Shown: piece by piece, positions 5,078-31,974 of the stretch
How the letters are laid out: each line of letters starts with the position of its first letter
How positions within the stretch are numbered: the first letter of the stretch is position 1
DNA from: Polytrichum commune
Taxonomy: Eukaryota; Streptophyta; Polytrichopsida; Polytrichales; Polytrichaceae
Assembly: GCA_950295325.1 (NCBI GenBank)
Contig: OX485807.1
Span: 18,075,666-18,139,665 of the forward strand
DNA: 64,000 nucleotides
Direction: 5' to 3'
Translations under genes and position numbers: made by a program
Notes under the pieces: model-generated
Databases searched by the model: none
What the model was told of the DNA's origin: nothing
Seen by the model: the letters and a program-made list of their open reading frames with translations, nothing else

Positions 5078-5771
5078 GGTTGGACTACTTCATTGGAAAC
5101 CTGAATCATGTGCATGGTTCACTATGAAATTATACCCCTGGTTTACAGATAAAAACAAATTTATATGTACTTGTGGTAGGCTAGAAAATGAACTCATGTA
5201 TTTATATTATGTTTCTCAATTTTATATGATAAAAACCTTGACTACAAAATATAAATCAATGCTAAAGTAGGCGTTCATTGCATATAAAATCCACTTTCAA
5301 TTTCTAATGAAAATGTCATTGAACATTTTTTTTCATCCATACCATATAACTCAATGATTGCATCAAACAAACAAAGAGAAAAGCACAATAACTTAGCCTT
5401 AATTTGGAAAACAAAACACAAAGGAGCTCATGACAGCTCAAAGAGCCTCCAATTTATAAATACCTAGAACCCTAATGCAAACCCTACCAAGAGATAGGGT
5501 ACTCATTAAGGACTATTACCACATGATAACAATGGATGAAATGTGAATTGGATGAAACAAACACATATGTTGTTAGATTTTTCTCTAAACCTCAAGGACC
5601 CATTTGTAAATATGCCTTTACTTTAGAAGAATTAATAACCTTTTTAAATGTACACACTAGAGAGAAATAACACCTCTTCCTTATGTATATTATTTACATT
5701 AATGCATCGAACAATACCCCTTCTTACACTCGTATTGGTTCATACATAGTGTGAAGAGTCCACCCCCCGGG
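5078..5771. mobile_element. Non-autonomous TIR transposon, family B, copy 2
   Basis: A ~694-bp copy lies about 440 bp downstream of copy 1 in the same orientation. The left end is eroded (GGTTGGACTACTTCATTGG). The right end, GTGTGAAGAGTCCACCCC, matches the inverted terminus of the family. Internal landmarks match copies 1 and 3 throughout. I see no convincing target duplication. No coding capacity. Confidence 0.65.
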
Positions 5772-29639: not shown

Positions 29640-31735
29640 TGTGGGGCCTTACATCTAAGGAGGGGGGGGGGGGTTATGGGGGGTTGTTTGTTGTCTAACT
29701 TCCTTTTGTTTAACCCCTAAAGGACTGGGGGTGTTTTAGCTTAGGTCATGTTTTCTTGATTAGCTCTTGTAGCAAGCTCAATTTCTTATTAGTGTGGGGT
29801 AATTTTCACGATCGGCACCGTTGAAACTAAAGAAGACTTACATAGCTTGTTTATGGAAAAAAGATCAACAAGATCGCACAATTTCTGAGAAAATGCCACC
29901 GTTGAGAAGATTGATGGAAATTGTTCGGGCAGGGGGTACTTCGTACTTATGCTGGAATCAGATTGCTTAGAAGTGCTCCAAAACATCTGAAAATTTTACC
30001 ACATGTAAAGAACATTATGACCCTCATGTGGAATTTTTTTCGTGAAATTTTGAGGTGTGGAAAAAAAGATATGGGACTTTGAAGTCTCCAAGCAATGAGA
30101 TTGGGCCCAAAAACTGAAAACTCAAAGAATTCGCCAAAAATCCAATCCTTCATCATTTTCTGATCGGAAAAGACCATTGGATCCATCTCGCAAAAACAGC
30201 CAGGGTCCTCTCCCCGCAAATTTGGACTTCTTTGGAACAATCTCATCCAATTTGCACTTTTCTACAATCAAAAGCCCCCTGGGGGCCTTACGGTCCTTTA
30301 GGGGTTAATATTAGGTATGTGAGATACTTGAGGGCAATTTGATGTATTTGTTTCATGAGTGATTTGATCTCATCTTTGGGTATTTTGAGTTTTTTTCTAA
30401 GTCTTTGATTGTTTGTTCATGGATAGCTCCTCTAACGCATGTTATGATGGTGATGAGAGGGTTGACTTACCAACTTGATGTTCTAAGTGCATGTATAAGT
30501 GGTTTGTATTTAGCAGGTTTTTCTCCATGGGTGTTGTTTGGGAATTTGTCGTGGCAGTAGGTGAATTCTATGAATTGTACGATATTTTGGGGGGGGGGGG
30601 GGGAGGTGGCTATCTGCGGGGACACCTAATATGCATCGTATGTCAGGTATGAGTTTGGCTAGGCATGTGCATGGCATAGTGGGGCATGTGCATTGGAGTA
30701 GCCATTGTGGGATTGTGATGTCTTGGGGTCCGGAGTTTTGGTTGCCTGCATTGATGCGTGTGTAGTATCTCGTATGTTTATTTGATTGTAGTGTGTGCCC
30801 GATTTGGTGTACTGCTTTATTGTGGCGTTCTATTCATATTCCTTTTTATGTGGGGGTTTGAGCATGTAGAGAGTAAGTGTGGCCATGTGTCTATGGCATT
30901 ATTGGGGCATATTGTACAGTTTGGGTTTGGGTGTAAGGTAGGCTAGAATATATTTTTACAGTGGTTACATGTATATTGGGCATATCGGAATTTAAGAGTT
31001 GGTGTAATGTGGGTGTTTGTGATCCTGGGATTTTTCCAAAATCGGTTGGAGAGTTTGTGCCTAATTTGGTCATTGGATGTCCATTTGTCTATATATGTGA
31101 ATTTGGATTGGGCAAATCTTAGTTTTTGGTTCTTGTGTTATTTGTTGATGTATGCTTGTAGGTTGCGTATAGCACCCATGTGGGTACCAATTGGGACCCC
31201 GTTGAGCCAACATGGCGTAGTATGGGCCGTATGTATCCAGGGTGTGTTGGGGGGCTTTGTCTACGAGGGATCCATCATGTGCTAGTTGGTCCACGATTTC
31301 ATTGCTTGCTATGCCCGTTTGCACTCTGATTTCTTGTATTGTAATTTTGTGTGTGGACCAGGTTATTTGGTTGATTTTAGCAACAATGAGTAATTTGTCC
31401 GGGTGGTTGTGTTGGGATGATGGGTATCATATGTGATTATGTGTTAGGTATATACTATTAAGGCTATTCGTAAAGATGTGGGTGTCTTGCATATGGTGAT
31501 GTGTACTATTTATTGCTATTAGTATGGTGTTTAATTCGGCTCTGAGTATGTTTTGTAATCTCGGGAGTCTCTCCGCAATTCGAAGGTTGTTGGCGGGCCT
31601 GTAGACACCTGATCTGGCTATGTTGCATGTGCCATTATTGTCAAGGGGTATAAACGAGCCATCAATGTATATGCATTGTTGAGGTTTGAATTTAAAGAGA
31701 TGGATATTGTATAGTTCCATTGGTAAGGGTTGTGT
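29640..31735 (-). pseudogene. LINE 3' portion with RNase H domain, split by a TTAA-flanked element
   Basis: Minus-strand translation from about 31,735 gives a recognisable RNase H domain: IYIDGSFIPL (first catalytic Asp), LQNILRAELNTILIAI (Glu) and THIFTNSLNSIYL, where the usual second Asp of TDS is Asn. Downstream pieces in shifting frames follow the C-terminal region of plant RNase H-bearing non-LTR retrotransposons, including IERHNKAVHQI (about 30,800-30,832), QFIEFTYCHDKFPN and DEIKSLMKQIHQIALKYL. The reading then breaks at 30,308 and resumes at about 29,712 with LNKRKLDNK. There are several frameshifts and stops. The 5' part, with endonuclease and reverse transcriptase, is absent, so the copy is 5'-truncated as LINEs often are. 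Poly-C runs on the coding strand interrupt it at 30,589-30,603 and 29,662-29,673. Family assignment rests on recalled motif order, not a search. Confidence 0.75.
29714..30304. mobile_element. 591-bp TIR element inserted at TTAA in the RNase H LINE
   Basis: The ends are inverted: CCCCTAAAGGAC at the left and GTCCTTTAGGGG at the right, with G/C-rich blocks just inside. TTAA lies directly outside both (29,710-29,713 and 30,305-30,308). Removing the element plus one TTAA joins the LINE codons for TYLI to LNKRKL in frame, which defines the insertion independently of the TIRs. Two readings fit: TTAA duplication with CCCC termini (piggyBac-like) or TA duplication with ACCCC termini (Tc1/mariner-like). 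No transposase is visible. A 99-codon minus-strand frame inside it matches nothing I know. Confidence 0.75.
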
Positions 31736-31974
31736 TGAGTGCTTGAATGTGAAACCATTGGTCGAGACGTTCTTTCATGGACGTGGACATGCTATCTTAT
31801 TACTTTAGTTGTTGTTCATGTTCTTTATTCAATGCCACCATATGCATCTACAATTTGTTCTTCTCACATTATTGGCTTCCAACTCTTGTCAAATAGTTGG
31901 CTATGGTATTTGACGAAATCACACAACTTGTTTGTCTTAGTAGCTCTCCTCTTCAAACATGTCAATCCTAGAGT
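31736..31974. other. Spacer between two minus-strand relics
   Basis: AT-rich. It may hold the degraded 3' end of the trihelix relic to its right. Nothing specific was recognised. Confidence 0.4.

Follow-up and report, generated by a model that had tools for sequence, protein, structure and literature searches.

The 64,000-nucleotide window analysed here, from the moss Polytrichum commune, holds a copy of a repeat that is interrupted by a short insert with C-rich inverted termini, and the question that it raises is which kind of transposon the insert belongs to and what mobilised it. A first-pass annotation made from the letters of the window favoured piggyBac, on the ground of a TTAA duplication, and added that a TA duplication with ACCCC termini (Tc1/mariner) fits equally well; the letters of one copy by itself are the same under both readings. 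The piggyBac transposons are valued for their scar-free excision, and their best-known hosts are animals, fungi and protists.

The insertion and its host repeat

The window comes from contig C5 of an assembly of 408 Mb; of the 64 contigs, seven (C1-C7) have the size of chromosomes (42-78 Mb). The insert is 591 bp long (29714-30304), is bounded by inverted termini (CCCCTAAAGGACYG) within duplicated TTAA, and lies on the minus strand in the orientation of the full-length element A described below. Its left end reads CCCCTAAAGGACTG (29714-29727) and its right end CGGTCCTTTAGGGG (30291-30304); the inverted repeat of this copy is perfect over 12 bp and has one mismatch over 14 bp. The two copies of the target-site duplication occupy 29710-29713 on the left and 30305-30308 on the right, and the bounds and inverted termini given in the first-pass annotation are exact. 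A near-perfect palindrome, GCCCCCTGGGGGC, is found just inside one terminus (30274-30286) and is also present in element A, at one of its two ends. The longest open frame within the 591 bp is 104 codons, counted stop to stop.

When the insert and one TTAA are removed, the joined flanks match 39 other LINE copies at 77-83%. The comparison of empty and filled sites that the first-pass annotation had proposed was made for the window insertion alone, with 24 of these 39 paralogues, and it agrees with a four-base duplication: all 24 align straight across the join and carry the tetranucleotide once. Today it reads TTAA at 8 of these empty sites, TTAG at 14 and otherwise at 2; 16/24 no longer read TTAA. 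A minus-strand peptide, IHQIALKYLTYLI/LNKRKLDNKQPP (the slash marks the join), crosses the junction and is recognisable in all 24 paralogues compared, with scattered substitutions, small indels and a few stops. The earlier argument that the LINE is in frame again without the element and one TTAA therefore holds, and the peptide reads across the join as claimed.

The window copy of the LINE is decayed, with stops elsewhere. Its remnant upstream of the insertion (in the sense of the LINE) includes an RNase H-like part at 31070-31774 on the minus strand, delimited by open reading frames and by a sub-threshold match to RNase_H (31427-31774, minus strand; 17.1 bits, below the cut-off of 25.8). Pfam returned no family for the two neighbouring minus-strand frames, and 31070-31426 was without a match. 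The sub-threshold RNase H match and the look of the peptide together suggest that the host repeat is a LINE. Two poly-G runs, of 12 bases at 29662-29673 and of 15 bases at 30589-30603, flank the insertion within the decayed repeat.

A full-length element with the same ends

The Pfam family PF13843 (piggyBac transposase) has 118 matches above cut-off in the genome, belonging to at least four lineages (A to D), and 19 of the 118 are free of stops over 344 or more of the 349 model positions. The same family gave no match in 14 control genomes, which say little because those named are prokaryotes. One match (C2:2250172-2251296) sits between two exact sites of TTAA plus terminal inverted repeat. 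The element so bounded, element A (locus L009, C2:2246618-2252353), is 5,736 bp long, has TTAA on both sides and ends in a perfect 14-bp terminal repeat, CCCCTAAAGGACCG; it has its 14-bp termini in common with the 591-bp insert, of which the left terminus in the window copy differs from CCCCTAAAGGACCG by one mismatch.

The transposase frame of element A is uninterrupted (783 codons stop to stop, 770 from the ATG). The 770-aa protein matches Pfam DDE_Tnp_1_7 (E 1.3e-69), and the only solved structures that it matches at E 0.001 are piggyBac (6x67, E 3.5e-30) and piggyBat (9c0f, E 2.3e-28). In the alignment to 6x67, residues D436, D517 and D634 align with D268, D346 and D447, the catalytic triad of T. 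ni piggyBac (PMC7351741). These three aspartates and D637 are invariant in eight aligned moss proteins from the four lineages, as are C738, C741, C749, C752, C762 and H767; against Pfam zf-Tnp_2 the C-terminal domain reaches E 0.079, which is below the cut-off. An AlphaFold model of the 770-aa transposase with eight moss sequences has a mean pLDDT of 38.7, too poor to use. Two more copies of this transposase are 99-100% identical, one base shorter and split between two frames; the next are 96% and 94% identical, followed by fragments.

Among known systems, piggyBat (PDB 9c0f), whose host is a bat, is like the moss element in having a piggyBac superfamily transposase, with a score similar to that of piggyBac itself, and unlike it in host and sequence. 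T. ni piggyBac has C-rich terminal letters, as has the moss element. The latter further resembles T. ni piggyBac (IFP2; PDB 6x67/6x68) in its TTAA target, in the three aligned aspartates and possibly in a Cys/His-rich C-terminal region. The two differ in that their similarity is moderate (E 3.5e-30 over about 400 aa), in the length of the transposase (770 aa against a 594-residue chain) and in the size of the element (5.7 kb against 2,472 bp; PMC10140906). In T. ni piggyBac internal repeats bind the cysteine-rich domain; in the moss element exact words revealed no internal repeat common to both ends. Those of at least 9 bases that occur at both ends of element A are the 14-bp terminal repeat and one 9-mer at unlike places, a comparison that could miss a degenerate repeat. 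Subterminal repeats do not define the piggyBac superfamily as a whole, for which four groups of end organisation are described (PMC8086355).

Aligned by blastn in the orientation of element A, bases 1-185 of the insert correspond to A 1-185 (95.1% identical; 30120-30304 of the window, minus strand) and bases 186-591 to A 5331-5736 (95.8% identical; 29714-30119, minus strand), both without gaps. The deletion join, as placed by blastn and the junction letters, lies at 30119/30120 (minus strand), and a 600-602-bp form of the insert keeps about nine more bases at this point. Judged by this alignment, the insert is element A without its middle, a non-autonomous piggyBac element. It has the properties of a MITE, being short, without coding capacity, present in many homogeneous copies and derived from an autonomous element.

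The other lineages, B (L082-L084), C (L085-L086) and D (L005-L008), are 32-37% identical to A in the eight-protein alignment. Lineage B has frames of 934-949 aa, stop to stop, and in the stretches examined (L082-L084) no clear pair of TTAA and terminal repeat was found. Lineage C (L085:62-6360, L086:29-5683) has frames of 1,099 and 1,125 aa with a long N-terminal extension, in TTAA-bounded elements of 6,291 and 5,647 bp whose termini read CCCCTAAA.../...TTTAGGGG. The transposase frames of lineage D are 564 aa long; the end GCATTTAGGGG plus TTAA, which includes TTTAGGGG, occurs at four sites with four different flanks, and the other (left) end was not found in the stretches examined. Over the stretches aligned, L005 is 98-99.8% identical to each of the three other lineage D sites, and these copies look recent. 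An adjacent open frame of 392 codons, cut by the locus edge, was seen in L005 and L006.

The coexistence of these lineages bears on which enzyme moved the MITE. That it is a piggyBac element mobilised in trans mainly by lineage C or D is unlikely, though either lineage may cross-mobilise it: both lineages have CCCCTAAA/TTTAGGGG next to TTAA, so that the first eight bases are in common with the MITE, and of the 19 uninterrupted, near-full-domain matches five carry the 564-aa frame of lineage D and one (C2:2250172) is lineage A. However, the termini of C and D differ from the MITE beyond these first 8 bases, whereas lineage A is matched over all 591 bp.

Copies of the MITE, target duplication and age

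A genome search yielded 95 candidates, of which 40, including the query, were scored. All 40 match the 591-base query over at least 585 positions; identity to it is 96-98% in the other 39, which are spread over all of C1-C7. The size of the family is a lower bound because only 40 of the 95 candidates were scored. The word TTAACCCCTAAAGGAC has 200 exact sites genome-wide against 0 for the reversed control, and given this excess and the 39 further copies, the termini are not a product of chance. Among the 100 sites of this word listed on C1-C3 there are 26 left-right neighbour pairs, spaced 358 to 1,251 bp.

For the scoring of flanks, the 40 copies were picked for similarity in the element body, irrespective of what adjoins them. 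TTAA adjoins the left end in 38/40 copies, the right end in 38/40, both ends in 36/40 and at least one end in 40/40; in each of the four remaining copies one flank reads TTAA and the opposite flank TAAA, AGCA, TTAG or TTTA. Genome-wide there are 168 exact matches to the 14-bp terminus CCCCTAAAGGACYG, 2 of them preceded by VTAA, and among the 78 such termini listed on C1-C3 TTAA precedes 71 and is absent from 7. The target-site duplication is TTAA, and a TA-only duplication of the mariner type is excluded.

These counts decide between the readings with which we began. A Tc1/mariner-type MITE, with ACCCC...GGGGT termini between duplicated TA, is extremely improbable, because the outer T (39/40 copies) and the outer A (40/40), which a TA target does not require and which would be free under such a duplication, are nearly fixed; in addition, the matching long copy encodes a piggyBac and not a mariner transposase. 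The opinion that mariner fits equally well thus has to be given up, while the TTAA reading of the first-pass annotation is borne out by the flank counts, by the single tetranucleotide at the empty sites and by the piggyBac transposase in the long copy. Its proposals to look for a multicopy family with these termini and for a long copy encoding a DDD transposase both led to a positive result, namely the 40 scored copies (39 besides the query, at 96-98% identity) and the 5,736-bp element A.

Plant Stowaway and Tourist MITEs are short, bear terminal inverted repeats and reach high copy number; their duplications are TA and TWA and their partners are mariner or PIF/Harbinger elements, whereas the moss MITE has TTAA and a piggyBac partner. 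PIF/Harbinger elements also combine C/G-rich termini with a T/A-rich target, but a Tourist-like origin with a 3-bp TWA duplication deserves hardly any credence: four bases are duplicated and not three, a 3-bp duplication would leave asymmetric termini (ACCCC...GGGG), and the partner is piggyBac. Contamination with animal or fungal DNA, or an assembly artefact, which would suit a superfamily best known from animals, is a negligible prospect in view of the copies on all seven large contigs, the position of the window copy inside a host repeat whose homologous empty sites are found on several of these contigs, the LEAFY matches on C1 and C7, and the plastid rbcL contig that belongs to the assembly.

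The LEAFY family is represented by six exon matches at three loci (L087, L088 and G000:C7:8635861-8637757) on C1 and C7, and two of the six contain TAG. The domain of L088, the one locus of the three that was compared, scores 218.7 bits against 4bhk (FLORICAULA/LEAFY homolog 1, presumably from Physcomitrella) and 171.1 against Arabidopsis LEAFY. Both L088 and 4bhk have D in MRDYVHCY, where Arabidopsis and two further chains have H or Q; this residue alone is not decisive because the L087 copy has H in MR[D/H]YVHCY. Judged by the LEAFY domain of L088, the host is most likely a moss, and the number of chromosome-sized contigs, seven, may fit Polytrichaceae. On contig C8 a full-length rbcL lies beside an accD-like frame (accD by reading of the frame), and two rbcL-family nuclear fragments (G000:C3:14137891-14138196 and C2:70106055-70106189) are perhaps transfers of plastid DNA.

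The age of the family was judged from those of the 40 copies that are under 650 bp, a set of 34 that leaves out five copies of 921 bp and one of 1,251 bp. Their mean difference is 2.8% (range 1.0-4.9%), and 141 of 190 variant bases are confined to one copy, a pattern that suggests a burst from few sources. The 34 MITEs differ by 4.7% from the ends of the element A copy; since this exceeds the 2.8% among the MITEs, the copy is a relative and not the direct parent. The MITE family is probably young and recently mobile.

The six long copies owe their length to tandem duplication of an internal 330-bp unit, of which the 921- and 1,251-bp forms have one or two additional copies (detail in L036 and L048). 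TTAA is found on both sides in 5/6 of them, and L035 has TTTA on the right. These longer forms look mobile too because they are found at different places; it looks as though the duplicated forms either transpose or arose repeatedly. MITE forms of 920-1,251 bp were seen at L034, L035, L036, L039, L040, L048 and L054, with 330-bp units that start inside the terminal repeat.

Two further loci show other arrangements. At L013:798-2533 (G000:C2:63707397-63709132), an intact 602-bp copy is followed by four further tandem repeats of a 400-bp unit, which consists of the last 132 bp of the MITE and its right flank; nested insertion into TTAA was considered for this array and rejected in favour of local tandem duplication of the MITE end and flank. 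At L055:201-810 (G000:C1:23948266-23948875) a MITE of 602 bp lies between TTAA tetranucleotides; its terminal repeat is nearly that of the window MITE, and its interior has no match to it. This group appears to be older, because other genomic places match it at only 65-84%.

A piggyBac system in a moss

The insert is almost certainly a non-autonomous piggyBac MITE, derived from a 5.7-kb autonomous-type element of this genome, or from one closely related to the copy observed, through loss of about 5.1 kb of internal sequence, and dispersed to TTAA sites by cut-and-paste. What the data establish directly is the family with its TTAA duplication, the empty site, the common ends and the transposase gene with its DDD residues. 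The assignment to piggyBac rests on short C-rich terminal inverted repeats that start with CCC beside TTAA (CCCCTAAAGGACYG), on the TTAA target-site duplication seen in the flank counts and empty sites, and on a DDE_Tnp_1_7 transposase with a DDD triad in an element that has the ends of the MITE. From known piggyBac biochemistry, the lineage A transposase would bind the 14-bp CCCCTAAAGGACCG ends of its own element and, in trans, those of the MITE, and would cut via a TTAA hairpin intermediate; the excised element would be joined to a new TTAA and the donor sites repaired without a scar. Hairpin chemistry and scar-free repair are described for T. ni piggyBac (PMC7351741).

The element is a further case of a known superfamily. 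Many piggyBac-related MITEs of insects and corals are TTAA-flanked, and the moss MITE differs from them in host lineage. Such MITEs of piggyBac-like elements in insects and corals are the subject of PMC9033116 and PMC2872659.

For plants, the relevant passages of two reviews place piggyBac-like elements there and name no land plant (PMC8086355, PMC10140906). PiggyBac is listed among plant superfamilies in PMC10794571, red algae serve as the plant example in PMC12732532, and a survey that includes land plants counts PiggyBac among the superfamilies in all groups studied (PMC4438587). Traces appear in a fern repeat table (1,230 PiggyBac fragments, 0.00%; PMC6890710) and in a grass repeat table (one 75-bp PiggyBac fragment; PMC8319324). 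A Physcomitrella paper of 2017 states that moth piggyBac as a tool was not yet tested in that moss (PMC5505980). A literature search combining piggyBac with moss, bryophyte, Physcomitrella, Sphagnum or land plant found no native bryophyte system described in the titles and opening lines of abstracts of the papers listed, in a collection to which most subscription journals do not belong. The first-pass annotation was fair in saying that reports of piggyBac from land plants are not general: the reviews give no detail, and the fern and grass tables show traces.

The chance that no land plant has had a native piggyBac system worked out before is about even. The present one would bring together four or more transposase lineages within one moss nuclear genome, of which three have the terminal motif TTAA-CCCCTAAA in common. 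Lineage D copies that are 98-99.8% identical at four sites, and the young burst of lineage A MITEs, suggest that mobility is recent, and the system would hence be a candidate for a scar-free transposon native to mosses.

A land plant here presents the complete set-up of a transposon group otherwise found mostly in animals. Since one moss combines an open full-length element with its MITE and several coexisting lineages, the plant branch of piggyBac becomes directly testable: did it arrive by inheritance from algae or by horizontal transfer, is it active, and can the moss enzyme be used in moss genetics? Other plant MITEs with TTAA flanks, which can readily be classed with TA or TWA elements, may also be piggyBac.
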